Source: Alphaproteobacteria bacterium (lineage in GTDB: Bacteria; Pseudomonadota; Alphaproteobacteria; Rhodobacterales; Rhodobacteraceae). Taken from it: 40,766 nt of DNA. The notes under the pieces were generated by a model that was given only the letters and a program-made list of their open reading frames with translations, was not told the origin of the DNA and did not search any database. Location of the stretch: the NCBI GenBank assembly GCA_030427145.1, contig JAUHWT010000028.1, positions 1-40,766 on the forward strand. The letters run 5' to 3'. Position 1 is the stretch's first letter, and every line of letters begins with the position of its first letter. This document shows positions 1,857 to 16,184 of this stretch, one piece after another. A program made the position numbers and the translations under genes.

Positions 1857-1909
1857 GAACCACACCCGGACAAAATTGGCGTGCCAGTTCAAACAGAATG
1901 GCCCGCGAC

Positions 1910-1994: not shown

Positions 1995-3611
1995 ATGCAG
2001 GTCGACTACGTGATTGTGGGCGCAGGCAGTGCGGGCTGCGTTCTCGCCAATCGGCTCAGCGCGGACGGAAAATCAGACGTGGCTGTGATCGAGGCCGGCG
2101 GCTCCGATCTGAACCTCTGGGTTCGCATGCCCATAGGCTATGGCGGGGCGTTTCACAATCCGCGCATCAACTGGCGCTATTCCACCGAACCCGACCCCGG
2201 CACCGGCAACCGCGTCAGCTACTGGCCCCGTGGACGTGTTCTTGGCGGGTCGAGCGCCATCAACGCCATGGTCTACATTCGTGGTCAGGCAGCGGACTAT
2301 GACGGCTGGGCTGCACTAGGAAACCCTGGCTGGTCCCATGCGGACGTGCTGCCCCTGTTCCGGCGCATGGAAAACAACCTCGCGGGCGGGGACGACTGGC
2401 GCGGCACCGACGGACCCATCACCATCACCGGCACCAACAAGGGCGTGCATCCGCTGAGCCACGACTGGGTCGCCGCGGCCGAAGCCGCCGGCCTCCCCCG
2501 CAACCGCGATTTCAACGGCGCGGACCAGGAAGGTGTCGGCCTCTACCAGATCACCACCCGCAACGGTTTCCGCTGCTCAGCGGCCACCGGCTACCTGAAC
2601 CCAGCCCGACGGCGCGCAAACCTCCAAGTTATCACACGCGCCCACGCGACCCGCATCCTCTTTGAGGGCCGCCGCGCCACCGGCATCGAATACCGGCGCG
2701 GCAGCGAAACCCTGCACATCCACGCCCGCCGCGAGGTCATCCTCTCCGCCGGCGCCGTCAACTCGCCCCAGCTGCTGCAACTCTCCGGCATCGGCGAGGC
2801 CAGCCGCCTGAAAAACCTCGGCCTCGACATCACCCAGGACCTCCCCGGCGTCGGCTCCAACCTTCAGGACCATATCGGCTACGATTTCATCTATGAGGCC
2901 AACTGCCCCACCCTCAACGACACCCTGCGCCCCTGGGCGGGACGCATCGCCATGGGACTGCGCTACATGCTGACCCGGAGCGGCCCACTCTCGCTCAGCT
3001 TCAACCAGGCCGGCGGCTTCTTTCGCAGTTCGCCCGACCGACCCCGACCAAACCTGCAACTCTACTTCTCTCCGGTCAGCTACACGCGAAAAACTCCCGG
3101 AAAACGTCGCCTGCTCGCCCCCGACGCCTTCCCCGGGATGCAGCTCGGGATCTCCAACTGCCACCCCCAAAGCCGCGGGCACCTCCATATCCGCTCCGCC
3201 GACCCGATGGCACCGCCGGAAATCCACCCCCGCTATCTCAGCGCCCCGGAGGACCTGAACGAGCTTTGCGAGGGCGTCGACATCCTGCGCCGCATCGCCG
3301 CCGCCCAGCCGCTGGCCGGCTCCATCCTCCGCGAGATCATCCCCGGAGCAAACGTCACCGACCCCGACGACCTGCGCGCGAACATCGTTGCCCAGGCCGG
3401 CACCGTCTTCCACCCCTGCGGCACCTGCGCCATGGGCCCCGACCCAAAGGAGTGCGCAGTGGTCAACGCCCGCCTGAAGGTCCATGGCCTGGACGGCCTG
3501 CGCGTGGCCGACGCCTCCATCTTCCCCCGCATCACCGCCGGTAACATCAACGCCCCGTCCATGATGGTCGGCGAAAAGGCCTCCGACCTGATTTTGGCGG
3601 ACAGGGAATGA
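1995..3611 (+). CDS. GMC-family FAD oxidoreductase (choline/alcohol dehydrogenase-like)
   Basis: This 538-aa flavoprotein oxidises an alcohol to an aldehyde. The N-terminal FAD motif is VGAGSAG (residues 8-14), followed by the GMC signature WPRGRVLGGSSAINAM. The C-terminal catalytic region has FHPCGTCAMG with His473 and GNINAPSMM with Asn519, the His/Asn pair of choline-dehydrogenase-like members. The ATG at 1995 is preferred over an upstream in-frame start at 1947 because GGGGAA lies just ahead and the protein then begins at the FAD strand (MQVDYVIVGAG). The substrate is open: choline, long-chain alcohols and polyethylene glycol are all oxidised by close family members. No betB or betI is adjacent, which weakens a choline assignment. 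It appears monocistronic. Confidence 0.9.
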   Translation: MQVDYVIVGAGSAGCVLANRLSADGKSDVAVIEAGGSDLNLWVRMPIGYGGAFHNPRINWRYSTEPDPGTGNRVSYWPRGRVLGGSSAINAMVYIRGQAADYDGWAALGNPGWSHADVLPLFRRMENNLAGGDDWRGTDGPITITGTNKGVHPLSHDWVAAAEAAGLPRNRDFNGADQEGVGLYQITTRNGFRCSAATGYLNPARRRANLQVITRAHATRILFEGRRATGIEYRRGSETLHIHARREVILSAGAVNSPQLLQLSGIGEASRLKNLGLDITQDLPGVGSNLQDHIGYDFIYEANCPTLNDTLRPWAGRIAMGLRYMLTRSGPLSLSFNQAGGFFRSSPDRPRPNLQLYFSPVSYTRKTPGKRRLLAPDAFPGMQLGISNCHPQSRGHLHIRSADPMAPPEIHPRYLSAPEDLNELCEGVDILRRIAAAQPLAGSILREIIPGANVTDPDDLRANIVAQAGTVFHPCGTCAMGPDPKECAVVNARLKVHGLDGLRVADASIFPRITAGNINAPSMMVGEKASDLILADRE

Positions 3612-3725: not shown

Positions 3726-4460
3726 ATGCAAAATTCAAGCCATTCACCCACACGCCACGGATTAACAGCCCACGCCGTTATTCTGGCAACACTGGTCACC
3801 CTGCCTTCTCCCGCCACCGCCCGTGAACCCTGTCCGGTTGAAGGCCCCAAACCTGAAGTCTACGGAAACACATGGATCCACGTTGACGACCGTACGTCCC
3901 TGCGTTTGGTCCCCAGTCACGTTCTTCTCATCGTCGACGGACGCGAAAAATCCTTCATGGCGGTTCAGCAGCCTGATAACGGCCCGACGGAAACGATAGT
4001 AGAGGTAACACCGGGAAAGTACTTCGTTCTGGGTCCGGTCAGGAGCTATCTGATCACCCTCACGGAAGGCGACGACGGGATCGAGATGGTAGCCCCAGTT
4101 GAATTGCCCGTTCGCTACTACGAAGAATGCAGTTTCGTGGACAGGGTGTTCTGGGGTATCTGCATGGAAAAACCCACTGAATACAGTCCGGCTCTCGGCG
4201 CGGTCGTTTCTTCCGGTTTTGACACAAAAGGCAGCCAGGGAACGGTTCTCTTCCGGGACGACAGTATTGGCACACCCCTCGAACTTGAGGACGGCACACC
4301 AGTAATCTACCGACGGGACGATCAGGCTGGGAACGCTTTGGTCGTGACGATTGAAGACTGGGATGGTTACGTCATCACGAAGAACGGTACACTGACGTGC
4401 CGGGACTATCTCGAACACCACCCCGAACTTGAAACCTTTCCACCCCGCACGGACCCCTGA
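3726..4460 (+). CDS. Secreted protein of unknown function, first tandem copy
   Basis: This 244-aa protein is not a family I recognise. The N-terminus looks like a signal peptide: a short polar start, a hydrophobic stretch around residues 17-29 (AVILATLVTLPSP) and an ATA-R cleavage site near residue 32, so it is probably periplasmic. The mature part has four cysteines (EPCPV, YEECSF, GICME, LTCRDY), all conserved in the next gene, suggesting two disulfides. It appears rich in beta strands (IHVDDRTSLRLV, HVLLIVDG, TIVEVTPGKYFVLGPV). The start is supported by a shared upstream sequence in both copies (TTTCCCTGAGTACCC here and TTTCCCGAGTCCCC there) rather than by a ribosome site. Codon use is less GC-rich than in neighbouring genes. 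No clue to function comes from neighbours. Confidence 0.75.
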   Translation: MQNSSHSPTRHGLTAHAVILATLVTLPSPATAREPCPVEGPKPEVYGNTWIHVDDRTSLRLVPSHVLLIVDGREKSFMAVQQPDNGPTETIVEVTPGKYFVLGPVRSYLITLTEGDDGIEMVAPVELPVRYYEECSFVDRVFWGICMEKPTEYSPALGAVVSSGFDTKGSQGTVLFRDDSIGTPLELEDGTPVIYRRDDQAGNALVVTIEDWDGYVITKNGTLTCRDYLEHHPELETFPPRTDP

Positions 4461-4561
4461 CGGAAACATTCACACGTTTGGATTATCCAACATTTTCGGT
4501 CATCCTGCCCGTTGCGGCTTATCCGCAGTCATTGTTCCAATTCCTAATTTCCCGAGTCCCC

Positions 4562-5326
4562 ATGCAGTTATCCAGCGATCCATCAGCACATCACAAAATG
4601 TCGAAACCATTTCCCCACTTAACCGCATTAACAGGCCGGGCCATCGTGCTCGCTGCCCTGGTCACCCTGCCCCGACCCGCCACCGCCCTCGAACCCTGTC
4701 CGGTTCGCGGTCCCAAACCTGAAATCTATGGCAACACATGGATCCACGTTCACAACCGAACGTCCCTCCAGTTGGCCTCCAGTCACGTTCGCCTCATCGT
4801 CGACGGACGCAGAAAATCCTTCACACCGGTGTTTCAACCGGATAGCGGACCCCCGGAAACGATAGTGGAGGTAACACCGGGAAAATACTTCGTACTGGGT
4901 CCGGTCAGAAGCTATCTGATCACACTGACGGAGGGCGATGACGGGGTCGAAATGAAGGCTCCAGTCGAACTCCCTACTCGCTACAACGTCGAATGTGGTT
5001 TCTGGGAAAAGTTTATTGAGGGCGGTTGCATCGAACAACCTGCCGAATACAGCCCGGCGTTGGGAGCTGTCGTTTCCGTTGGTTATGACCAGAAAAATAG
5101 GCAGGGAACCATACTCTTTCGCGACGACAATATCGGTACGCCCCTGGAGCTGGACGACGGAACACTATTAATCTACCGATGGGACGACCAGGCTGGAAAT
5201 GCATTGGTCGTGACCGCGGAAGACTGGGACGGTTACGTCATCACGGAGAACGGTACACTGACGTGCCGGGACTATCTCGAACACCACCCCGAACTTGAAA
5301 CCTTTCCACCCCGCACGGACGACTGA
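4562..5326 (+). CDS. Secreted protein of unknown function, second tandem copy
   Basis: This 254-aa paralogue of the gene just upstream is colinear over its whole length. It has the same signal-peptide layout (LAALVTLPRPATA then LEPCPV), the same four cysteines and the same C-terminus CRDYLEHHPELETFPPRTD. The ATG at 4562 aligns with the start of the first copy; an open frame extends further upstream to 4478 without homology. Similarity is uneven: the last 74 nt before the final two codons (5247-5320) are identical to 4381-4454, while the middle differs at many sites, a pattern typical of gene conversion. Tandem duplication explains the pair. Function is unknown. Confidence 0.75.
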   Translation: MQLSSDPSAHHKMSKPFPHLTALTGRAIVLAALVTLPRPATALEPCPVRGPKPEIYGNTWIHVHNRTSLQLASSHVRLIVDGRRKSFTPVFQPDSGPPETIVEVTPGKYFVLGPVRSYLITLTEGDDGVEMKAPVELPTRYNVECGFWEKFIEGGCIEQPAEYSPALGAVVSVGYDQKNRQGTILFRDDNIGTPLELDDGTLLIYRWDDQAGNALVVTAEDWDGYVITENGTLTCRDYLEHHPELETFPPRTDD

Positions 5327-5366: not shown

Positions 5367-6851
5367 TCATACCAACCCCCGCATCACCCGTCCCAGCGCC
5401 GCGACACTCCGCCCGATCCGCGCGGCGGGCACCGCGCTGAACCCAAGCGTCAGCCCCTGCCGGTCGATCGGTGAAAGCGCAAACCGGCCCAGCGGTGCCG
5501 TGGCGATCCCCGCCGCGCCCGCCGCCCCGGCGACAACGGTTTCCGACAGCCCCGACACCTCCAGATCCCCGATTGTGTGAAACCCGGTCTCCGTGGGCCG
5601 TACCGTCAACAGCCCCTCCAGGTCCCGATCCGCCGCCCGCATCAGGGCATCGCGCCGTTCGGCATAGACCTCCCGCATCCTGCGGATATGGGTGGTGAAA
5701 TGCCCCTCGTCGATGAAATCCGCCACAATGGCCTGCGCCCCCGTGGGCGCGCCCTGCAACATCGCCGCCGCCGTGCGCTCGAACATCTCCACCAGCCGGG
5801 GCGGTGCCACCACGAAACCCAGGCGCAGGGCAGGGAAAATCGACTTCGAGAACGTGCCCACATAGACCACCCGTCCCGAGGCATCCATGCTCTTCAGCGG
5901 CGGTGGCGTGTGGCTGCCATAGTGGAACTCCCCCACGTAATCATCCTCGATGATCCAGGCCCCCGTCCGCTCCGCCGCCCGCAACAGTTCAAACCGCCGC
6001 GACACGCTCATGGTGTTTCCCAACGGATGCTGATGCGCGGGCGTGACAAAGGCCAGCCGAAACTCCGGCGCGGCCTCCAGGCCCGCCGCCACGTCCAACC
6101 CTTCCGCATCCACCGGCACCGGCACCAGCCTGGCTCCGCAGGCAATGAAACTGTTCCGTGCGCCCACCGTGCCGGGGTTTTCAAACCACACCGGATCGCC
6201 CGGATTGACCAGCATGGACGCGATCCGGTTGAACGCATCCTGCGCCCCGTTGAAGATAAACACCTCCTCCGGCGCGCAGGTCACCCCCCGGTTCGCCCGC
6301 ATGTGCTGGCTCACGCTCCGCCGCAACTCCATCAGCCCGCACGGGTCCGGATAGCGCATCACCCCGCTGCGCCCGCCCCGCCAGTGCCGCGCCGACAGCC
6401 GCGACCACAGCGCCATGGGAAACACGTCAAACGCGGGCATGCCCGTCACAAACGCCCGTGGCGTGTCCGGATGCGCCAGGCGCGTGTAATACCGGTCCGA
6501 CGCATCCCGGCTCAGGGTCGCCAGCCTCGGCGGCACCGCGTCCTCCCCACGCGGCACCTCATGGGCGGGCACCGGCGGTAGGATCGTGTCACTCACATAC
6601 GTCCCCGACCCCACCAGCGACCGCAGCAAACCCTCCGCCGCCAGCTGCTCATAGGTGTTGACCGCCGTGGTCCGCGACACCCCCTGGCTCCGCGCCAGCG
6701 TCCGGCTCGCGGGCAGACGCACCCCCGCCGGCAACTGCCCCGACAGGATCATCCGCCGCAGCGCCGCGACCAGCTGGACCGTTATCGTGGCACTGTCATC
6801 GTGCCTGATCGGAATGACCGGGATGAGCGCCCCGCCCGCGTATTTCGTCAC
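5367..6851 (-). CDS. MocR/PdxR-type GntR regulator with aminotransferase-like domain
   Basis: This 494-aa regulator has an N-terminal GntR winged helix (about residues 20-90: QLVAALRRMILSGQLPAGVR, then SRTLARSQGVSRTTAVNTYE) fused to a fold-type I aminotransferase domain. The PLP-lysine motif GTFSKSIFPALRLGF puts Lys near residue 336, and IIEDDYVGEF provides the usual acidic PLP contact. MocR proteins sense PLP adducts of amino compounds and control neighbouring metabolic genes. I chose a GTG start at 6851 because GAAGGAG (6863-6857) sits 5 nt ahead; longer ATG starts at 6878 and 6947 lack such a site and would run into the divergent promoter. It is divergent from the enolase/oxidase genes, with a putative operator between them. 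Likely local activator or repressor; the effector is unknown. Confidence 0.9.
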   Translation of the reverse strand: MTKYAGGALIPVIPIRHDDSATITVQLVAALRRMILSGQLPAGVRLPASRTLARSQGVSRTTAVNTYEQLAAEGLLRSLVGSGTYVSDTILPPVPAHEVPRGEDAVPPRLATLSRDASDRYYTRLAHPDTPRAFVTGMPAFDVFPMALWSRLSARHWRGGRSGVMRYPDPCGLMELRRSVSQHMRANRGVTCAPEEVFIFNGAQDAFNRIASMLVNPGDPVWFENPGTVGARNSFIACGARLVPVPVDAEGLDVAAGLEAAPEFRLAFVTPAHQHPLGNTMSVSRRFELLRAAERTGAWIIEDDYVGEFHYGSHTPPPLKSMDASGRVVYVGTFSKSIFPALRLGFVVAPPRLVEMFERTAAAMLQGAPTGAQAIVADFIDEGHFTTHIRRMREVYAERRDALMRAADRDLEGLLTVRPTETGFHTIGDLEVSGLSETVVAGAAGAAGIATAPLGRFALSPIDRQGLTLGFSAVPAARIGRSVAALGRVMRGLV

Positions 6852-6864
6852 CGCGGCTCCTTCA

Positions 6865-6896
6865 ATTGGTCTGCCCATTGGTTCAAAGTGGACCTT
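6865..6896 (+). promoter_or_regulatory. Putative MocR operator A (MocR/enolase intergenic region)
   Basis: ATTGG (6865) and AAGTGGACCTT (6886-6896) are 21 nt apart start to start. The same two elements with the same 21-nt spacing recur at 9423-9454 in front of the transporter operon. The half-sites TTGGTC and GTGGACC look like imperfect direct repeats 22 nt apart, about two helical turns, as described for several MocR regulators. It lies directly upstream of the MocR ribosome binding site, so autoregulation is also possible. Confidence 0.55.
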
Positions 6897-6964
6897 ATCA
6901 CCAGCCCAATATGCAATCATCCGTGGATGCGGACAATCCATGTCCATCCAAGGTGAGCCAACGC

Positions 6965-8083
6965 ATGAAAATCATTCGCATCGAGACATTTTCGAACCCC
7001 TTCGTGGGTTTCACCAGGGTCACGGACGAGACCGGCGCCACCGGCTGGGGCCAGATGTCCACCTACCATTCCGACATCACCGCCCAGGTTCTCCACCGCC
7101 AGGTCGCCCCTTGGACAATCGGCATCGACATTGACGACCTGGACGACCACCTGAACCTCATACAGGAACGCGAACACAAATTCCCCGGCTCCTATATCTG
7201 CCGCGCCATGGGCGGCCTGGAAACCGCCATTTGGGATCTGCGCGGCAAACAGGCGGGCGTCCCCGTCGCCACCCTGCTCGGCGGCAGTCCCGGCAAAATC
7301 CGCGCCTACGCCTCGTCCATGAAGCGCGACATCACGCCTGCCAACGAGGCAGATCGCTTCCGCCGCCTGCGCGGTGACTACGGCTTCGACGCCTTCAAGT
7401 TCCGCATTGGAGCCGAGGTCGGGCGCGGCCGCGACGAATGGGAGAGCCGCACCGGAGAAATCATCCCCACGATCGCCAAAACCTTCGCCGGTGAGGACGT
7501 AACCCTGCTCGTGGACGCCAATTCCTGCTACGCCCCCGACCAGGCCATCACCTGGGGCCACATGCTGCTCGACCACGGCATCACCCATTACGAGGAACCC
7601 TGCCCCTACTGGGAACTCGACCAGACCCGCACCGTTCGCGAGGCCTTCGCCGACACGCCGCTCGACGTCACCGGCGGCGAACAGGACTGCATGATCCCCA
7701 CCTGGAAACGCATGATCGACATGCACGCCGTCGACATCGTGCAGCCCGACGTGATGTATGTGGGCGGCATGGGCCGCACGCTTGAGGTCGCCCGCCTGGC
7801 CGAAGCCGCGGGCCTGCCTGTCACCCCCCACTGCGCCAACCTCTCGCTGGTGACGCTCTTCACCATGCACCTCTTGCGCGCCATCCCAAATGCGGGAAAG
7901 TATCTCGAGTTTTCCATCGAGGGTGAGGACTACTACCCATGGCAGCAGGACCTTTTCGTGACCGATCCCTACGCGATCACGGACGGAATGGCCGAGGTCA
8001 CCGACGCGCCGGGCTGGGGTATCGAGGTAAACCCCGAATGGCTCGCAAAATCCATCTACCAGGTCAGCGAAATGGACGACTGA
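6965..8083 (+). CDS. Enolase-superfamily enzyme (mandelate racemase/muconate lactonizing type)
   Basis: This 372-aa protein has the enolase-superfamily capping domain (about residues 1-110) and barrel. Visible barrel residues are Lys145 in FKFRIG, metal ligands Asp184 (VDANS), Glu210 (YEEP) and Glu239 (GGEQD), and an Asp262 (VQPDV)-His289 (TPHC) dyad. The spacings 239-262-289 equal those of mandelate racemase (247-270-297), so this is an acid-sugar dehydratase or racemase type enzyme acting on a carboxylate. The usual KxK or KxH is KxR here (Lys145, Arg147), so the exact reaction is unclear. The ATG at 6965 has AAGGTGAG 8 nt upstream. It is followed 36 nt later by an amine-oxidase-like gene and stands divergent from a MocR regulator, which suggests an amino or hydroxy acid substrate. 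I cannot name it. Confidence 0.85.
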   Translation: MKIIRIETFSNPFVGFTRVTDETGATGWGQMSTYHSDITAQVLHRQVAPWTIGIDIDDLDDHLNLIQEREHKFPGSYICRAMGGLETAIWDLRGKQAGVPVATLLGGSPGKIRAYASSMKRDITPANEADRFRRLRGDYGFDAFKFRIGAEVGRGRDEWESRTGEIIPTIAKTFAGEDVTLLVDANSCYAPDQAITWGHMLLDHGITHYEEPCPYWELDQTRTVREAFADTPLDVTGGEQDCMIPTWKRMIDMHAVDIVQPDVMYVGGMGRTLEVARLAEAAGLPVTPHCANLSLVTLFTMHLLRAIPNAGKYLEFSIEGEDYYPWQQDLFVTDPYAITDGMAEVTDAPGWGIEVNPEWLAKSIYQVSEMDD

Positions 8084-8085
8084 CC

Positions 8086-8127
8086 ATGTCCGAAAGCGTC
8101 CATAACGCTGCGGCTTACAATGGCTGA
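8086..8127 (+). CDS. Possible 13-codon leader ORF overlapping the oxidase start
   Basis: ATG at 8086, two nt after the enolase stop, opens a 13-codon frame (MSESVHNAAAYNG) whose TGA at 8125-8127 overlaps the oxidase start codon at 8120. The oxidase lacks a visible Shine-Dalgarno sequence, so translation of this short frame could deliver ribosomes to it. It could equally be chance, or a relic of a longer N-terminus lost by frameshift. Confidence 0.25.
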   Translation: MSESVHNAAAYNG

Positions 8128-9418
8128 ATTCTTCACGAAGGATTTTCGCGCGGCACCCTATTGGTGGGACCGCTACCCTCTGGACGATCGAACCGCACCC
8201 GACCTGCCAAACCGGTCCGACGCGGTCGTCATTGGCTCGGGCTACACCGGCCTTCACGCAGCGCTGCAAATCGCACGCGCCGGTCGCAGTGTCATCGTAC
8301 TTGAGAGAGATGCCCTAGGCCAGGGCTGCTCAACCCGCAATGGCGGCCAGATCAGCATTTCAATCAAATCTGACCTGAAGGAACTCACAGTCAAACACGG
8401 CGCCGATACCGCCCGCCGAATTCTTCAGGATGGACATGCCTCCCGCGCCTATATTGAGGAATTCGTCAAAACCGAGGGCCTTGACTGTGACTTCCGCACT
8501 TCCGGCCGCTTCCACGCCGCCCATTCGGCCGCAGCCTTCAGGGATCTGCGAGCAACCATCGAGAACCAGCCGAAGGAATTTGTGCGCCAGATTACCCTGA
8601 TACCCCGCACCGAACAAAGACGCGAGCTTGGCACGGATTTCTACCACGGGGGCGCGGTATACCATGACGTTGCTGAAATCGACCCCGGCCGCTACCACGC
8701 AGGCCTCATCGCCCTTTGCCGCAAGGCTGGCGTCTCGATCCATCCCAAGACACCAGCAACCTTGCTCGATTCCGACCACAAGGGCGCAACCGTCACCACC
8801 CCACGCGGACCCATCAAAACCCGGGACGTGGTCATTGCCACCAATGGATATTCCGGTGACCTCTCCCCTTGGCACAGACGCCGTATCATCCCCATCGGCA
8901 GCTACATAATCGCCACCGAAGTGCTTCCCTCCGACCTCATTGATGGATTGTTCCCCACAGGCCGCCTCGTCTCGGACAGCCGCCGCGTGGTTTACTACTA
9001 CCGAACCAGCCCGGACCGACGCCGCATCCTCTTCGGCGGGCGAGTCAGTGCGGGCGAAACCGACACCCGCGCCAGCGCCCGCCGCCTGCGCGACGAGATG
9101 ATCCGCATCTTTCCCGAGCTCGCTGGTTACCAAATATCACACTCCTGGATGGGTTTCGTCGGCTACACCTTCGACACCCTGCCCCATATGGGTCGACAGG
9201 ACCGGGTGCATCACGCAATGGGCTACTGTGGCGCAGGCGTGGGAATGGCAAGCTACCTCGGAATGAAAACCGGGTTGGCTGTTCTAGGCGATCCCGAAGG
9301 AACCACGGGCCTCGAAAAAACCGCGTTCCCGCCCCGTCCCCTCTACAACGGCAAACCGTGGTTTCTGCCGGCAGCCGTGGAATATTACCGCCTCCGGGAC
9401 AGACTCGGCCTTTCGTAG
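8120..9418 (+). CDS. FAD-dependent amine/amino acid oxidoreductase (DadA/PuuB-like)
   Basis: This 432-aa flavoenzyme belongs to the D-amino acid oxidase (DAO) family, most like gamma-glutamylputrescine oxidase and related proteins. The FAD motif VIGSGYTGLHAAL is near residues 37-49, followed by TRNGGQ near residue 75, which matches the GRNGGQ of PuuB-type enzymes. The C-terminal FAD region has HAMGYCGAGVGMASYLG. Such enzymes oxidise a C-N bond of an amine or amino acid to an imine. The N-terminal YWWD pattern supports the start at 8120. It is probably cotranscribed with the enolase-superfamily gene and sits just ahead of a polyamine-type transporter, so it likely acts on the imported compound or a product of it. 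The substrate cannot be read from sequence. Confidence 0.88.
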   Translation: MAEFFTKDFRAAPYWWDRYPLDDRTAPDLPNRSDAVVIGSGYTGLHAALQIARAGRSVIVLERDALGQGCSTRNGGQISISIKSDLKELTVKHGADTARRILQDGHASRAYIEEFVKTEGLDCDFRTSGRFHAAHSAAAFRDLRATIENQPKEFVRQITLIPRTEQRRELGTDFYHGGAVYHDVAEIDPGRYHAGLIALCRKAGVSIHPKTPATLLDSDHKGATVTTPRGPIKTRDVVIATNGYSGDLSPWHRRRIIPIGSYIIATEVLPSDLIDGLFPTGRLVSDSRRVVYYYRTSPDRRRILFGGRVSAGETDTRASARRLRDEMIRIFPELAGYQISHSWMGFVGYTFDTLPHMGRQDRVHHAMGYCGAGVGMASYLGMKTGLAVLGDPEGTTGLEKTAFPPRPLYNGKPWFLPAAVEYYRLRDRLGLS

Positions 9419-9422
9419 CGTC

Positions 9423-9454
9423 ATTGGCATGCCATTGCATGGGAAGTGGACCTT
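9423..9454 (+). promoter_or_regulatory. Putative MocR operator B (upstream of the ABC transporter operon)
   Basis: ATTGG (9423) and AAGTGGACCTT (9444-9454) repeat the two elements of site A at identical spacing, 105 nt ahead of the binding-protein start codon. The bases between them differ apart from a CCATTG. This argues that the same MocR regulator controls uptake and breakdown. Confidence 0.55.
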
Positions 9455-9558
9455 GCCCAACGGGCTAATTCGGGGTCTAGTCCCCTCCAGCGAAAAAAGC
9501 GCAACAAAAAAGAACAATAACACACAAACCACACACCAACACGGAAGGATTCTCAGAC

Positions 9559-10626
9559 ATGAAAGCGTCACTCAAACTCCTGCTGGCGGGCACGGCCCTC
9601 AGCCTGGTCGCGGGGACTGTCTCCGCCGAAACCCTGCGGCTCATGACCTGGGGCAGCTACGCGCCGGAGGAACTGATCAACAAATTCGAGGAGGAATATC
9701 CCGACATTGTTGTTGAGGTCACGTTCTCTAACAACGAGGAAATGATTGCGAAGCTGCGCGCCACCGGCGGCTCCGGTTACGATCTGGCCCAACCCAGTCA
9801 TGACCGCATTTTCTCCGCCCAGCAGGAATACAACATCTACAAGCCACTCGACCTGAGTCAGATTGACACCTCCGTCATGTCGGAAAACCTGCTCGAGGGC
9901 GTCAAGGCCAACACGACGATCGACGGCGAGGTCTATGCCGTGCCGCACCAGTGGGGCACCTCCGGCATCATGACCAACAAATCGGTCGCGCCTGACGTGA
10001 CTGGATGGAACGACCTTTGCGACCCGGCCTACGAGGGAAAAACCTCCATGCGCCTGCGCCGTACCATTCTGCTCGGCACCGCCTTTGGCATGGGCATGGA
10101 CCCGTTCGCGCTCTACGACGACCCCGAGGCCTACCAGGACATGCTGGACCAGGTCACTGAAAAGCTGATCGACTGCAAATCCGTAATCAAAACCTACTGG
10201 ACCGGCGGCGATGACCTTGCTGCTCTCATGCTGTCGGGTGAGGTCGTGGTGTCGGAAACCTGGGATTCCACGGCCTACAAGCTGTTCGGCGAAAACCCGG
10301 ACATCGTCTTTGTGCCGCCCGAGACCGGTGCGCTTGCCTGGATCGACACTTTCGCCATCCCCCGTGGCGGAGAAGCCGATGACGCGGCCTACAAGTGGAT
10401 AAACTTCGTAATGCGCCCTGAGAATGTGGAAATCATGTCGGCTTCGACCGGTGCGATCGCTGCCGTTCCGAACGGCATTGATCTCCTGCCTGAGGACAAA
10501 CGCGCCGCCGTGCAGGCAGCCTTTGAGGATACCGACCTCGAAAACCTGAAGTTCTTTGCGAACATCCCGGCCGGAATCGAAGACATGGAAGGTCTCGCGC
10601 TGGAACGCATCCAGGCTGCACAGTAA
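9559..10626 (+). CDS. Polyamine-type ABC transporter, periplasmic binding protein (PotD/PotF-like)
   Basis: This 355-aa periplasmic binding protein opens with a signal peptide (LLLAGTALSLVAGTVSA, cleavage near residue 23) followed by ETLRLMTWGSYAP, a start typical of PotD/PotF-like proteins. Later blocks such as VPHQWGTSGIMTNK, SGEVVVSETWDST and FAIPRGGEADDAAYKWINF match the family order. It captures a cationic amine or similar solute and hands it to the PotA-B-C membrane complex encoded just downstream. GGAAGGA lies 8 nt before the start. The putative MocR site upstream and two hairpins downstream suggest that it heads its own transcript and is made in excess over the membrane parts. The ligand may be putrescine, spermidine or another amino compound. 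Confidence 0.9.
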   Translation: MKASLKLLLAGTALSLVAGTVSAETLRLMTWGSYAPEELINKFEEEYPDIVVEVTFSNNEEMIAKLRATGGSGYDLAQPSHDRIFSAQQEYNIYKPLDLSQIDTSVMSENLLEGVKANTTIDGEVYAVPHQWGTSGIMTNKSVAPDVTGWNDLCDPAYEGKTSMRLRRTILLGTAFGMGMDPFALYDDPEAYQDMLDQVTEKLIDCKSVIKTYWTGGDDLAALMLSGEVVVSETWDSTAYKLFGENPDIVFVPPETGALAWIDTFAIPRGGEADDAAYKWINFVMRPENVEIMSASTGAIAAVPNGIDLLPEDKRAAVQAAFEDTDLENLKFFANIPAGIEDMEGLALERIQAAQ

Positions 10627-10647
10627 AAACTTTTTACCACCATCCAT

Positions 10648-10695
10648 GGGCAGGGGCGACAATACGCCCCTGTCCTGTTCCGGCCATTCGCCGGA
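10648..10695 (+). terminator. Two consecutive hairpins between the binding-protein and ATPase genes
   Basis: The first hairpin (10648-10675) has a perfect core stem CAGGGGCG / CGCCCCTG around ACAATA, extended by three more pairs including one G-U. The second (10679-10695) is TCCGGC-CATTC-GCCGGA. Neither has a T-run. They lie in the 99-nt gap between the binding-protein and ATPase genes. Such hairpins often protect the upstream mRNA from 3' decay or cause partial termination, giving more binding protein than membrane parts. Confidence 0.5.
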
Positions 10696-10725
10696 CCCGG
10701 AATTTCAGACATCGGGGGGCGGATC

Positions 10726-11799
10726 ATGTATGATCTCAGATGCGAAAGCGTCATTAAACGCTTTGGGAATTTTACCGCCGTGAATGGCGTCAGCTTTGGC
10801 GTGCCCGCCGGTTCATTCTTTTCCATTCTCGGCCCATCGGGCTGCGGAAAAACCACCCTGATGCGCATGATCGCAGGGTTTGAGCATCCCGATGCGGGCG
10901 ACATCCTGCTCAAGGAAAATTCGGTCCTGAATCTCGCGCCCAACAAGCGCAACGTGAAGATGGTGTTTCAGCACCTCGCTCTCTTCCCCATGATGAACGT
11001 GGGCGAAAACATTGCCTATGGCCTGCGGTGCCGGGGCGACGCCAAAGCCGGTATCGGTGAAAAGGTCCGGGCCGTACTTGACCGTGTCGGCCTGCCGGGA
11101 GTCGAGGACAAGCAGATCTCGCAACTTTCCGGGGGCCAGAAACAGCGTATCGCAATCGCACGCTGCATGGTCCTGGAACCGGACGTGCTTCTGCTCGATG
11201 AACCGCTTGGCGCACTCGATCTTAAACTGCGCGAACACATGAAGATTGAGCTGAAGCAACTCCAGCATCAGTTCGAGACCACGTTCCTGTATATTACGCA
11301 CGACCAGTCCGAAGCCCTTGTAATGTCTGACAATGTGGCCGTGATGAACGCCGGCCGATTCGAGCAGATCGGACCACCACGCGAACTCTACGACAACCCG
11401 GTCTCCGGCTTCGTCGCGGGCTTCGTCGGTGACACCAACCGCTGGGAAGGACGCATAGATCGTCTGGTCGATGGCACCGCCCGCGTGGCCCTCAACGGTG
11501 GTGGCTCGGTCCTGGCCAAGACCGGCGCGAACAGCCTGCGCGAGGCGTCTGCAGTGGAGGTTTTCGTGCGCCCCGAGGCCGTCGCAATTGGCCGGGGCAA
11601 TGACGGAGCCACCCTTTCCGGCCGCGTCGACAGCCTGCTGTTCAATGGCGCCAACAGCCGCATCCTGGTGCGAACCGAGACCGGAAAACTCGTTGAGGTG
11701 GCCGATACCTCCGGAGCAACCGGGTTCAACGAGGGCGACCCAATCGACATCCACTGGCATGCCGACCGGGCGCTTTGTTTCGCGCGGGACGCGGCCTGA
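10726..11799 (+). CDS. Polyamine-type ABC transporter ATP-binding protein (PotA-like)
   Basis: This 357-aa ATPase powers the transporter. Walker A is GPSGCGKTT (residues 36-44), the ABC signature LSGGQ is at 134-138, Walker B is VLLLDEPLGALD, and the switch His is in ITHDQSEAL. The C-terminal 110 residues after GDTNRWEG form the TOBE-type domain of PotA/MalK-like subunits. The last base of its TGA stop is the first base of the next ATG (TGATG at 11797-11801), so translation of the ATPase and the first permease is coupled. Confidence 0.93.
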   Translation: MYDLRCESVIKRFGNFTAVNGVSFGVPAGSFFSILGPSGCGKTTLMRMIAGFEHPDAGDILLKENSVLNLAPNKRNVKMVFQHLALFPMMNVGENIAYGLRCRGDAKAGIGEKVRAVLDRVGLPGVEDKQISQLSGGQKQRIAIARCMVLEPDVLLLDEPLGALDLKLREHMKIELKQLQHQFETTFLYITHDQSEALVMSDNVAVMNAGRFEQIGPPRELYDNPVSGFVAGFVGDTNRWEGRIDRLVDGTARVALNGGGSVLAKTGANSLREASAVEVFVRPEAVAIGRGNDGATLSGRVDSLLFNGANSRILVRTETGKLVEVADTSGATGFNEGDPIDIHWHADRALCFARDAA

Positions 11800-12665
11800 T
11801 GCGGTCTGACACGGGAAAACTCTCGCTTATTCTGTTGATGGCACCTTTCGCGCTCTGGATCGTGCTTCTTATAGCCCTGCCACAGTTTGGCATCGGCTAT
11901 GTCTCGCTGCGGGAGAAGGTCGGACCGGGCGAATATGAACTGGGTTTTGCCAATTACACGGCATTTCTTGGCGAGCCCATCTACTGGAACACCCTGTTGC
12001 GCACCGCATGGATGTCCATCCTCGTGACCTTTCTGGCCCTGGTGGTCGGTTTCCCCGTGGCTTACTACATCGCCAAAATCGCCCGCAAGCGCGCCCGCGC
12101 CGGTCTTTTCCTGCTCTGCCTGATCCCCCTCTGGGTCAGCGACCTTGTCCGTGCTTTCGGATGGATTGTCCTCCTGCGAGAAACAGGCATCGTTTCCAGC
12201 AGCCTTCAGTGGATGGGCGTCATCAGCGGCCCCGTGGAACTGCTCTACAACGATATCACCGTGATCATTGGTCTCGTCTACACGGTCGTGCTCTTCATGA
12301 TCGTGCCGCTTGTCTCCACACTCGACGGTATGGACGACGCCATGCTGGAAGCGGGCTATAATCTCGGCGGCAGCCGCTTCACCGTGTTCCGCCGCATCAT
12401 CGTCCCCTACGCCATGCCTGGCCTTGTCGCTGGCTGCATCATTACTTTCATGCTGACGGCAGGCAGCTACCTCACGCCCATTCTACTCGGCGGCAAAAAC
12501 AGCAGCTGGTTCACCGAGCAGATCTACAACCAGTTCATCACCCGCTACAACTGGGAGGCCGGAGCCACTTTCGGCGTCCTGCTGCTCGCCTTCACCTCGC
12601 TCGTGGTCTGGGTCGGCCTTCGCCTAACTGGCCAAAGCCTCGCAACAACCGTGGCAAAGGAGTAG
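11799..12665 (+). CDS. Polyamine-type ABC transporter permease 1 (PotB-like)
   Basis: This 288-aa inner-membrane permease has about six hydrophobic segments; the first begins at LSLILLMAPFALWIVLLIALP. The EAA loop that contacts the ATPase reads EAGYNLGGSRFTVFRRIIVP. The start at 11799 overlaps the ATPase stop by one base and removes eight unlikely residues of a longer open frame. A matching second permease follows 4 nt downstream, and the two would form the heterodimeric channel. Confidence 0.92.
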   Translation: MRSDTGKLSLILLMAPFALWIVLLIALPQFGIGYVSLREKVGPGEYELGFANYTAFLGEPIYWNTLLRTAWMSILVTFLALVVGFPVAYYIAKIARKRARAGLFLLCLIPLWVSDLVRAFGWIVLLRETGIVSSSLQWMGVISGPVELLYNDITVIIGLVYTVVLFMIVPLVSTLDGMDDAMLEAGYNLGGSRFTVFRRIIVPYAMPGLVAGCIITFMLTAGSYLTPILLGGKNSSWFTEQIYNQFITRYNWEAGATFGVLLLAFTSLVVWVGLRLTGQSLATTVAKE

Positions 12666-12669
12666 CGCG

Positions 12670-13524
12670 ATGAAACGAGCCAACCGATCCCCGTTCCTCA
12701 ACGCCGTTTATGCGACTTACATCGTCATCTTTTTCCTCTACCTCATAGCCCCTCTTCTCGCCGCCGGAGTTTTCGCCTTCAATGACTCCCTTTTCCCGTC
12801 GCTGCCGTGGCAGGGTTTCACCCTCGACTGGTTCTTCAACGACACCGAACCAAAACTCGGCATGTTCCACGACGAGCGTCTGTTGCGGGGTCTGGGAAAC
12901 TCGCTTTACATCGGCGTTATCGTCTCCGCCCTTTCGGTCGCAGCCGGCACCTGCAACGCGTTTCTGTTTGTACGCCGAGACTTCCCCTTCAAGAACGCGC
13001 TCTACGTGCTGATGGTCGTGCCACTGGTGATCCCTGGCGTCATCCTCGGCATCTCAATCCTCGTGTTCGCCTCCATGATCGCCAACGGCATCGACCAGGG
13101 CCTCGGCATCAACCTGACATGGCTTCGGCCCGGCATCCCGCTGATCGTTCTGGGCCAGTTTTCCTTCCTGACAACCATCACCTCTCTCGTAATCGCCGCG
13201 CGACTTGAAAAATTTGACATGGCACTGGAGGAAGCCGCCCTGAACCTCGGCGCTAACCGTCTTCGCGTACTGACGACCATCACGCTGCCTTTCCTCGTCC
13301 CGGCCCTGTTCTCGGCCTTTGTGGTGGCCTTCCTGGTGTCTTTTGAGAACTTTAACACCACGCTCATGCTGGTAGGCTCCGATGCGCCGCTCACAATCAC
13401 CATGTATGACCGCATGGTAAAGGTCGGCTCCACTCCCGTCCTGAACGCCGTATCGGTCTTCCTGATGCTCGGCTCCGGCCTTCTGGCTCTCCTGAGTGTC
13501 ATCGTTCAACGTGACCGAACATGA
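12670..13524 (+). CDS. Polyamine-type ABC transporter permease 2 (PotC-like)
   Basis: This 284-aa permease has about six transmembrane helices, starting YIVIFFLYLIAPLLAAG. The EAA loop reads EAALNLGANRLRVLTTITLP. AAAGGAG lies 6 nt upstream of the start, overlapping the previous stop region. It is the last gene of the transporter operon. No clear terminator follows in the roughly 300-nt gap. Confidence 0.92.
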   Translation: MKRANRSPFLNAVYATYIVIFFLYLIAPLLAAGVFAFNDSLFPSLPWQGFTLDWFFNDTEPKLGMFHDERLLRGLGNSLYIGVIVSALSVAAGTCNAFLFVRRDFPFKNALYVLMVVPLVIPGVILGISILVFASMIANGIDQGLGINLTWLRPGIPLIVLGQFSFLTTITSLVIAARLEKFDMALEEAALNLGANRLRVLTTITLPFLVPALFSAFVVAFLVSFENFNTTLMLVGSDAPLTITMYDRMVKVGSTPVLNAVSVFLMLGSGLLALLSVIVQRDRT

Positions 13525-13820: not shown

Positions 13821-16184
13821 ATGCGCCTGAAATTTAAAGCTGTTTTAATTCTTGGGTTGGCAGCTCTAACCACTCTTCATGCCGGCAATTCCGCAGTCGC
13901 GCAGGACGGCGCGCAGCCACTCGTGGTGGGCTGGACGGAAATGGCGCCGTTCTTTGAGAGCGGGGAAGACGGCGACGTGGACGGGTTTTCGGCAGAGGTC
14001 ATCGAGCGCGTTGCCGAAATTGCCGGCATTGAGATTTTATTTCAACAGTTTTCCAATCTCAGCGAAATGCGTGCCGCCCAGGCTGAGGGAACAACGGACA
14101 TTCTGGCCGGTGTAGCACCATCTCCGATGCTTGAGCCAGGAAGCCTCTATTCCGAGCCGGTGGCCGTGACCCATGTGCGGCTTTTCATGCGCACGGAAGA
14201 GGCGGATATCAGTCAGGAGGATTTCATCGGCATGCGACTGGGGGTCGTGCCCCCCGCAGCGGGGTCCAACCCCTCGCCACTACTGGATCGCAATACTGCA
14301 GTGCGGATGCCCAATACCGCCACCCTTTTGATGCGCCTTTTGGACGGCGATATTGACGGCGCGCTGGTGACCGAGGTTTCCTTTTTCCGGCAGGCCCATG
14401 CAGCACAACTCGACCACAGGATTGCCGCTGTAGGCCCCCCGGTTGGTGCTTTTGACAGGGTGGTCGTGCTTCGCCGCGAACATGCCGAACTGTTGGGAGC
14501 CATCAACGAGGCCGTAGCCGTAATAGAAGACAACGGGGACCTGGAAGCACTTCGCCAAAAATGGGGCGTCGTGCTGCCACCTCCCGCGCCGGAGGTGCTG
14601 GTCGTTGGCGTAACGGATTTTCCGCCACTTCAGGTCGTGACGGAGGATGGCGAGTTCACCGGTTACGCAGTGGAAGCGGTCAGGGAACTGGCCCGACGTG
14701 CCGGGCAACCACTCAAATTTATTGAAATTTCTCCCGAGGAATGGGCGGCCGGACCACGACCGGGCGCGTACGACATGCTGCCCCAGTCTCCGGTGACCGA
14801 TGCGCGCCGCGAACGGATGGATTTTTCGCTTCCAATTGAAATATTTACAACGTCAATCTTCATGCCGGCAAACAACTCCGACGGCATTGCCTCGCTCGCC
14901 GATCTGAGGGAGGCCGGACTTCGGGTTGCGGTCAGCTCCAACAGTGCCTCGCGCGGCTTTGTTGAGTCCGAAGCCGGCCTGAGTGTGGATCTCGTGCCGA
15001 ACTCGAGAGCGGCTCTCGATGCTGTGCTTTCAGGTGATGCCGATGCGATGGTGGCGGCCAGTTCCGCCACGCATCGCATGATTGAGGAACGCGGCGCCGT
15101 TGGAAAGATCGTCGAAGTCCTCCCGCCCGTGTATGTCGCACCACGGGCACCCGCACTGCGCCCTGGGCTCGGTACAGTGCGCGAACAGTTCAATAGCCTG
15201 ACGCCAGGGTTTCTCGCCTCGGAACAGCACAGGTTTTTGGTGACCCGCTGGTATGGTGAGCCGATATTTTGGACGCAGGAACGCGTCAGGCTGGCAGTTG
15301 GCGGAATTCTGGCCGTCGCCGTAGGGGCAATTGTAGCGTTTCTGATGTGGCGCCAGAGGGTTCGTCAGAGACATTTCGCGGAGATCCAGGCCGCGAATGC
15401 CCAGCTTGAGCGGCAAAACGCAAGGCTGGACGAACTCAATGCCGAACTCCTGCGGTCAAATGGCGAACTGGACAACTTTGCATATGTCGCATCACACGAC
15501 CTGAAAGAGCCGCTCCGCGGTGTCACGATCAATGCAAACTTCCTGTTGCGTGAGGACCTTGGCGAAAGGGCACGTGACCGCGTCGAGCGGATGACTGAAC
15601 TGTGTCAGCGAATGGAGCGGCTGATCTCCGATCTGCTGTTTTTCTCGCGGCTGTCGCAGAAGGATACCCAGCCCGAAGCCGTCGACGTCACTTCGGTTGT
15701 CGGAGAGATCCGCCGGAGCCTCGCGGAAACAATCTCTGAAAAAAACGGGGTACTGGAAATCGACGGCGACCTGCCCAAAGTCTTGGCACAGCCCACACGC
15801 ATTGCGACGGTTTTTCAGAATCTCATCGTAAACGCCCTGAAATACAACGATTCCGGTGCACCGGCGGTGGAGGTTGGATTCGCCAGGGAGGTAACCGTTG
15901 GGGGCGTCCCCAAAACAAACATGTTCTTCGTTCGCGATAACGGGATTGGCATAGAGGAAGAGTTCCACGACGAGGTGTTCCGAATTTTCCGGCGACTTAA
16001 TTCCGACAAAATTTACGGTTACGGTACCGGTGCAGGTCTGTCATTTGTCAAAAGGATTATAGAGGATTACGGTGGAGAAGTGACGTTCGTTTCGACACCC
16101 GGACAGGGCACAACGTTCTACTTTTCGCTGCCACTGGCGGATGAGGAAACGACGGTATCGGGCGTGACGGCAATGGCGTCCTGA
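13821..16184 (+). CDS. Sensor histidine kinase with two periplasmic solute-binding domains
   Basis: This 787-aa membrane kinase starts with a signal sequence (cleavage near AVAQD, residue 28) and two tandem family-3 solute-binding domains (about 33-250 and 258-480), a BvgS-like sensor layout. One transmembrane helix (about 488-508, LAVGGILAVAVGAIVAFLMW) leads into a coiled coil rich in AQLERQNARLDELNAEL. The kinase core has the H-box ASHDLKEPLRG with His559, then N-box FQNLIVNALKYN, G1 VRDNGIGI and G2 GYGTGAGLSF, most like phytochrome-type kinases. It lacks the receiver and HPt modules of BvgS and has no response-regulator gene beside it. GGAGG lies 5 nt before the start. It probably senses an amino acid or similar small molecule outside the membrane. 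Confidence 0.9.
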   Translation: MRLKFKAVLILGLAALTTLHAGNSAVAQDGAQPLVVGWTEMAPFFESGEDGDVDGFSAEVIERVAEIAGIEILFQQFSNLSEMRAAQAEGTTDILAGVAPSPMLEPGSLYSEPVAVTHVRLFMRTEEADISQEDFIGMRLGVVPPAAGSNPSPLLDRNTAVRMPNTATLLMRLLDGDIDGALVTEVSFFRQAHAAQLDHRIAAVGPPVGAFDRVVVLRREHAELLGAINEAVAVIEDNGDLEALRQKWGVVLPPPAPEVLVVGVTDFPPLQVVTEDGEFTGYAVEAVRELARRAGQPLKFIEISPEEWAAGPRPGAYDMLPQSPVTDARRERMDFSLPIEIFTTSIFMPANNSDGIASLADLREAGLRVAVSSNSASRGFVESEAGLSVDLVPNSRAALDAVLSGDADAMVAASSATHRMIEERGAVGKIVEVLPPVYVAPRAPALRPGLGTVREQFNSLTPGFLASEQHRFLVTRWYGEPIFWTQERVRLAVGGILAVAVGAIVAFLMWRQRVRQRHFAEIQAANAQLERQNARLDELNAELLRSNGELDNFAYVASHDLKEPLRGVTINANFLLREDLGERARDRVERMTELCQRMERLISDLLFFSRLSQKDTQPEAVDVTSVVGEIRRSLAETISEKNGVLEIDGDLPKVLAQPTRIATVFQNLIVNALKYNDSGAPAVEVGFAREVTVGGVPKTNMFFVRDNGIGIEEEFHDEVFRIFRRLNSDKIYGYGTGAGLSFVKRIIEDYGGEVTFVSTPGQGTTFYFSLPLADEETTVSGVTAMAS

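Follow-up and report, generated by a model that had tools for sequence, protein, structure and literature searches.

What does a bacterium do with a locus in which a MocR-type regulator stands beside an enolase-superfamily enzyme, a flavin oxidase, and a complete polyamine-type importer? The question is raised by a 40,766-nucleotide stretch of DNA from a member of the Rhodobacteraceae (positions 1 to 40,766 of contig JAUHWT010000028.1, assembly GCA_030427145.1), referred to here as the window. A first-pass annotation had proposed that positions 5367 to 13524 import an amino compound under MocR control and process it with the oxidase and the enolase, and our analysis partly supports that interpretation. 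The locus is a real, conserved catabolic regulon of known protein kinds, and the pathway was not found described among the literature matches listed. With modest confidence, we read it as probably three transcription units under a single MocR regulator, which together would import a zwitterionic amine bearing a primary alcohol and break it down by oxidation. What the DNA itself offers for this reading is a common operator-like repeat, conservation in relatives, a seemingly intact enolase active site, and an altered pocket in the binding protein.

Layout of the Locus

The MocR regulator, the enolase, the DAO-family oxidase, and the complete Pot-type ATP-binding cassette (ABC) importer were all found at the positions, on the strands, and in the families first ascribed to them. 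The regulator lies on the minus strand, and the enolase, the oxidase, the binding protein, the ATPase, and two permeases follow on the plus strand, ending at 13524. The interval drawn around them was too short, since an overlooked gene for a GMC-family alcohol dehydrogenase belongs to the locus as well. The features are as follows (FAD, flavin adenine dinucleotide; HTH, helix-turn-helix).

1876..1901, plus strand: putative MocR operator, a direct repeat, upstream of the GMC gene (regular-expression scan)
1995..3611, plus strand: GMC-family FAD alcohol dehydrogenase (Pfam GMC_oxred_N/C)
5367..6851, minus strand: MocR-type regulator, GntR HTH plus aminotransferase-like domain (PF00392 and PF00155, both over cut-off)
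6866..6891, plus strand: putative MocR operator between the MocR and enolase genes
6965..8083, plus strand: enolase-superfamily enzyme, mandelate-racemase type (MR_MLE_N/C)
8120..9418, plus strand: DAO-family FAD oxidase, glycine/sarcosine-oxidase fold (Pfam DAO)
9424..9449, plus strand: putative MocR operator upstream of the transporter genes
9559..10626, plus strand: periplasmic binding protein, PotD fold, altered ligand pocket (SBP_bac_8)
10726..11799, plus strand: ABC transporter ATPase (ABC_tran and TOBE_2)
11775..12665, plus strand: ABC permease, PotB-like, start codon unrefined (BPD_transp_1)
12670..13524, plus strand: ABC permease, PotC/PotI-like (BPD_transp_1)

The MocR gene very probably starts with the GTG at 6851 rather than at 6947, because the relative L072 has an ATG there and because the operator-like repeat lies upstream of 6851. 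The enolase starts with the ATG at 6965, and the region between the two genes is then 113 bp long.

Conservation and Architectures

The comparison covered 150 loci with a full-length enolase match, which reduce to 139 distinct enolase sequences, the window and a 38%-identical outlier (L177) counted in; only identical enolases were removed as duplicates, and the source genome sets overlap. Eighty of the loci were drawn from genome contigs as the best 80 of 369, a draw in which distant relatives are under-sampled. Neighbors were counted per locus by tblastn because home-made hexamer gene calling missed or mis-extended genes in relatives. The counts depend on the chosen identity and coverage thresholds (for GMC, at least 42% identity), and upstream distances run from the start of the tblastn match, not from proven start codons.

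The GMC dehydrogenase is the commonest counted neighbor of the enolase, being present in 95 of the 139 distinct loci (a total that includes the window), and in 52 loci it lies directly upstream on the same strand. DAO follows with 61 loci, MocR with 50, the window-type binding protein with 35, and a binding protein of another type, sbp2, and an aldehyde dehydrogenase (ALDH) with 30 each. The gene neighborhood claimed at the outset does recur in many relatives: GMC, DAO, MocR, and the same binding protein occur together in 24 of the 139 loci (window included), which argues that the gene set is not a product of chance.

Four architectures can be told apart. In type A, that of the window, GMC is followed by MocR, which is divergent from enolase-DAO, and then come the genes for the binding protein, ATPase, and permeases; it is found in Rhodobacterales and Rhizobiales, and in the latter an ALDH gene often comes after the enolase. 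Type B consists of LysR, DAO, an sbp2 importer, GMC, and enolase. In type C, which includes Ruegeria pomeroyi, MocR and the enolase diverge, and DAO and an sbp2 importer lie on the MocR side; type D has LysR, GMC, enolase, and often ALDH, as on the 262-kb plasmid of Phaeobacter inhibens. These types cluster on a tree of 138 enolase sequences (37 label changes; mean after shuffling, 87), in which the window enolase falls within a group of 34 rows, of which 28 are type A. The window-type importer is carried by six loci in the type C part of the tree (L081, L086, L087, L093, L105, and L140). Importers have therefore been swapped between loci of one kind, which argues that both importers act in one and the same pathway.

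Within the order, an enolase match at 1e-30 was obtained in 75 of 390 sampled genomes. At an identity of at least 57%, the count was 68 of 390 (our own count, window genome included), and the next match stood at 39%. A genome of the same genus, G369, gave no enolase match in this search of 390 genomes at 1e-30.

A Putative Operator Shared by Three Promoters

The claim that MocR controls its neighbors is backed, at the level of sequence, by a conserved promoter repeat. The 8-mer AAGGTCCA occurs upstream of the enolase in 30 of the 49 loci in which MocR is divergent from it, compared with at most 6 in 20 mononucleotide shuffles, and it falls within a direct repeat made up of TGG and A(A/G)TGG, whose TGG starts are 22 bp apart. 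Written as TGG-N17-A[AG]TGG, this repeat lies no more than 250 bp ahead of the enolase gene in 32 of 35 type A and 14 of 14 type C loci, compared with none of the LysR-type loci (0/16 type B and 0/14 type D), 2 of 27 GMC-only loci, and 3 of 32 other loci. With the real sites counted in, the background rate on one strand is about 0.01 match per 250 bp.

The same pattern precedes other genes of the locus. Upstream of GMC it is present in 25 of 33 type A and 3 of 9 type C loci (0/14 in type B, 0/14 in type D, and 0/27 in GMC-only loci); because the pattern was derived from enolase-side sites together with an initial inspection of the GMC side, this count is not fully independent. The binding-protein sites played no part in its derivation and came from scanning: the repeat lies no more than 350 bp upstream of the window-type binding protein in 28 of 35 type A loci and upstream of sbp2 in 0 of 30. 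DAO is preceded by it in 0 of 28 type A, 3 of 14 type C, and 0 of 16 type B loci, and ALDH in none (0/17 in type A, 0/5 in type C, and 0/8 in type D).

In the window, the pattern matches three times, at 1876 (GMC), 6866 (enolase), and 9424 (binding protein). A longer form, TTGGnnTGCC-N11-ARTGG, was derived from these three sites, so their perfect match is by construction; no fourth perfect match exists in the 4.54-Mb assembly. Scanning the genome for further regulon members with at most one mismatch gave 11 sites (the 3 perfect ones included) versus 16 for the reversed pattern, and the one-mismatch sites therefore look like noise. Allowing two mismatches gives a window count of 4, which likewise does not stand out from shuffled sequence (mean, 2.44; a count of 4 is reached in 23 of 100 shuffles). 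Across the 390 genomes, the longer pattern has 8 sites in 7 genomes, 5 of these sites being either within the window or immediately ahead of an enolase. The remaining 3 are in G036, G157, and G166, which are genomes without an enolase match at 1e-30.

The shared repeat before the GMC, enolase, and binding-protein genes, together with its recurrence at the promoters of relatives, suggests that GMC, enolase-DAO, and the genes from binding protein to permeases form one MocR regulon. The idea that MocR acts at the enolase promoter alone was rejected in view of the two further sites, at GMC and at the binding protein.

The regulator has the two domains of the MocR/GabR family, a GntR HTH and a fold-type I aminotransferase domain. 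A direct-repeat operator in a divergent promoter is a feature of such regulators, and the putative operator has this form. The taurine regulator TauR exemplifies MocR/GabR-type control of a catabolic locus through operators of this kind. Likewise, the ectoine locus governed by EnuR has a GntR-plus-aminotransferase-like regulator beside uptake and catabolic genes, and the enzymes of these known loci differ from those of the window. The window regulator falls below the cut-offs of the GabR, EhuR, and rhizopine MocR models. It does exceed that of the PdxR equivalog NF052282 (359 against a cut-off of 320 bits), yet its neighbors are catabolic and, within the genome, the perfect repeat is unique to this locus.

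Enolase Active Site

The closest solved relatives of the enolase are 3u4f, 3tcs, 3t8q, and 3t9p (546 to 625 bits), after which scores drop to about 110 bits. The enzyme thus shares an orphan family with four solved structures that have no assigned function. The K-x-R motif, D, N, E, E, an Asp-His dyad, and a final Glu stand at 97% or more in the family alignment. In the window these include K149xR151, D188, E214, E243, D266, H293, and E319, in a numbering that starts at 6953 (counted from the ATG at 6965, each number is 4 lower). Three metal-binding acids, a Lys on strand 2, the dyad, and the terminal Glu are all present, and the enzyme looks like it has a working mandelate-racemase-type active site.

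No curated model exceeds its cut-off for this protein, and all twelve listed were missed by a wide margin. The equivalogs for gluconate/galactonate, arabinonate, or cis-3-hydroxyproline dehydratases, for example, were missed at 116/750, 112/311, 98/650, and 53/500 bits. The sugar-acid and cis-3-hydroxyproline dehydratases share the fold and the mandelate-racemase-type catalytic residues of the window enolase, which differs from them in missing the listed models and in having a family of its own with the four structures.

Enolase relatives about 50% identical also occur on haloarchaeal plasmids (L183, L184, and L186), with no GMC, DAO, or importer partner over threshold. Four loci (L062, L063, L102, and L114) carry a second, different enolase-superfamily gene, which is beside MocR in three of the four; its nearest models are talarate/galactarate dehydratases, below cut-off.

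Binding Protein of the Importer

The binding protein passes the cut-off of no curated model. Its best structural matches are PotD and PotF, and its structural neighbors include gamma-aminobutyric acid (GABA) and opine receptors, which also speaks for the favored reading. Residues corresponding to PotD W34, Y37, S83, W229, W255, and D257 are retained in 32 of 32 orthologues; we take W34, Y37, W229, W255, and D257 of PotD/PotF to be the aromatic box and the amine-binding Asp, and D168/E171 to be a second acidic site. The segment that holds D168 and E171 in PotD has become TSMR(L/M)(R/K)RTIL in 37 of 37 binding proteins, a count that includes duplicates (loci with identical enolases) and in which the exact residue pairing depends on the alignment. 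An amine box that is kept and a second acidic site that has turned basic point to a zwitterion as the probable ligand rather than putrescine or spermidine.

Oxidoreductases and a Proposed Route

The best solved relatives of the GMC enzyme are a chloramphenicol-inactivating oxidoreductase (418 bits) and an oxygen-dependent choline dehydrogenase (391 bits). It scores below the BetA equivalog TIGR01810 (513 versus 732 bits), and its DHIG aligns with DHLE of choline dehydrogenase 9lq0; the Glu that follows the NLQDH motif in that enzyme presumably binds the trimethylammonium group. A role as choline dehydrogenase was rejected since both the BetA cut-off and this Glu are missed, though a subfamily model was missed only narrowly. 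The BetA/BetB pair likewise joins a GMC enzyme to an ALDH of the betaine aldehyde dehydrogenase-like kind; the window differs from it in the score below the BetA cut-off, the altered Glu position, the enolase that follows, and the PotD-type importer. The next GMC protein in the same genome is 46% identical to that of the window.

The DAO fold is that of amino-acid-type amine oxidases. Among the 25 of 52 models listed for this protein, no curated one exceeds its cut-off, L-pipecolate oxidase AmaA (138/600 bits) and an aminophosphonate oxidoreductase (160/633 bits) both being missed. There is also no PuuB model among these 25, and whether the library holds one was unchecked.

On the favored reading, MocR with pyridoxal phosphate would sense the amine and control the three promoters through a direct repeat with two half-sites 22 bp apart, and the ABC importer would take up the zwitterion. 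The GMC enzyme, together with an ALDH, would oxidize R-CH(X)-CH2OH to R-CH(X)-COO-; the ALDH gene lies beside the enolase in some relatives, and in the window genome a general enzyme may serve. The metal-dependent enolase would then remove the alpha-proton of the resulting acid, leading to dehydration, beta-elimination, or epimerization, and DAO would oxidize the C-N bond to give ammonia or an amine plus a carbonyl compound for central metabolism.

One relative lends support to the order of alcohol to acid and then enolase. L154, from genome G106, has in operon-like order a dehydrogenase of the type acting on (R)-2,3-dihydroxypropane-1-sulfonate (DHPS), a cysteate-racemase type, the enolase, and a Dpp-type importer. 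The first is HpsN-like (549 bits to 8wwe), and the second matches the cysteate racemase CuyB (271 bits; cut-off, 190). The available part of PMC11131964 describes the HpsN reaction as the conversion of a primary alcohol to an acid, and an HpsN-type enzyme would bring about the same net conversion as GMC and ALDH together, neither of which appears in L154 over the thresholds of the neighbor count. This single case thus supports the proposed order.

Neighboring Genes

Two genes at 3726 to 4460 and 4478 to 5326 separate GMC from MocR, which are adjacent in type A relatives. They are tandem paralogues, 77% identical, whose products look secreted and have no Pfam match, and they are the sole two copies in the genome. 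These apparently secreted proteins were rejected as pathway members, the 3726-to-4460 product having matched nothing in the related loci searched. Just upstream of the GMC gene, 1188 to 1856 encodes a C-terminal-type sugar-phosphate transferase (WcaJ/exopolysaccharide family, below cut-offs). Directly after the transporter, the translation of 13821 to 16184 has two binding-protein-like sensor regions and a histidine-kinase-like C terminus, with no match in the related loci searched.

Objections and Rival Explanations

Several observations weigh against a single regulon for a zwitterionic amino alcohol. The GMC enzyme stands just under a broader choline dehydrogenase subfamily model (NF002550; 598.5 versus 605 bits). 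No ALDH gene lies within 5367 to 13524, and the best candidate in the rest of the genome shares 46% identity with a linked ALDH. Thirty-two of the 139 enolase loci have no GMC, ALDH, DAO, MocR, importer protein of either kind, or LysR of either type. Matches to the loose repeat are no more frequent in the window than the background rate predicts (about 3 expected in 40.8 kb, 3 found), and the three sites are informative through their placement at three promoters and their common longer form, not their number. The order of steps is drawn from chemistry. Moreover, a Shinella locus has an ALDH where DAO would stand, and no DAO gene lies less than 10 kb from the enolase in P. inhibens, which means that the DAO step is dispensable. 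Of the earlier suggestion, the conserved gene neighborhood is supported; it had given DAO a part that some relatives dispense with and had overlooked GMC.

A final objection comes from the megaplasmid of R. pomeroyi DSS-3. Its cluster (L178) has the same MocR divergent from an orthologous enolase, DAO, GMC, a Pot-family importer, and the enolase-side repeat; it differs in that its importer belongs to another subfamily and in having a second DAO-type oxidase, ALDH, LysR, and a gene annotated as an epoxide hydrolase. The last, at L178:14699-15871 beyond ALDH, has no NCBIfam match at 0.001. In the parts of PMC9038784 and PMC9870897 available, only the importer of this cluster is named, and it is listed as a spermidine importer: the former, citing Mou et al. 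2010, lists SPOA0381-0384 as experimentally verified. We mapped these genes to the importer beside the enolase by gene order, from the tripartite ATP-independent periplasmic (TRAP) binding protein SPOA0374, seven genes before SPOA0381. None of the literature matches listed describes the gene set; this importer is the nearest mention among them, and it weighs against novelty.

The mapped importer is also the chief support for an ordinary polyamine route, in which spermidine or putrescine is imported and oxidized by DAO, with GMC and the enolase handling side products. This route agrees with the Pot-type importer and the PotD/PotF structural matches, and it is what the first-pass annotation had set against its own proposal. 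Although the R. pomeroyi listing speaks for it, the binding-site residues do not: the acidic site at D168/E171 is gone in all aligned orthologues. The window binding protein is only 23 to 24% identical to five sbp2-type proteins (that of R. pomeroyi not among them). The R. pomeroyi sbp2 is itself nearest MotA (291 bits; PotD, about 50 bits), its closest relatives in sequence being opine and GABA receptors rather than PotD. Spermidine would also leave the alcohol dehydrogenase and the enolase without a role. We consider this route unlikely, if still to be taken seriously.

Opine- or Amadori-like conjugates of sugar and amino acid would be imported whole, after which the primary alcohol of the sugar would be oxidized, the enolase would dehydrate the sugar acid, and DAO would cut the C-N bond. 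We regard this scheme as improbable.

Most doubtful is a sulfonated C3 amino alcohol (cysteinolate- or DHPS-like) converted to cysteate or sulfolactate, with the enolase as racemase or sulfite-eliminating lyase: the gene order of L154 favors it, as does the naming of cysteinolic acid as a compatible solute of marine microalgae in the available part of PMC8703288, but this is one locus, five neighbors of which match none of the other searched loci at 1e-15, and a general link of the enolase to DHPS or cysteate was rejected because, by our comparison, of the 81 among 390 genomes that have CuyB, G106 alone has it beside the enolase.

Biological Meaning

A bolder form of the favored reading, held with little confidence, is that the locus represents a pathway, widespread among alphaproteobacteria and so far undescribed, for a zwitterionic amino alcohol of algal or plant origin, such as a cysteinolate-like or other hydroxylated omega-amino compound. 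Oxidation of alcohol to acid, by GMC with or without ALDH or by an HpsN-type enzyme in one relative, would feed the orphan enolase, possibly for a reaction new to the superfamily (amino-acid-type racemization, or elimination of sulfite or an amine).

The orphan enolase family, present in 68 of 390 genomes and represented by four solved structures, is now placed in a regulon with members, a putative operator, and a transporter, and the hunt for its substrate can be reduced to one binding screen and one regulator knockout. That substrate may be a genuine currency in exchanges of algae with bacteria, because the R. pomeroyi importer shows large day-over-night transcript differences (table values of 22.7 to 53.4 for SPOA0381-0384, which we take to be day:night ratios in diatom coculture, in the available part of PMC9038784) and because SPOA0381 and SPOA0384 respond to Micromonas exometabolites, according to the part of PMC9870897 available.

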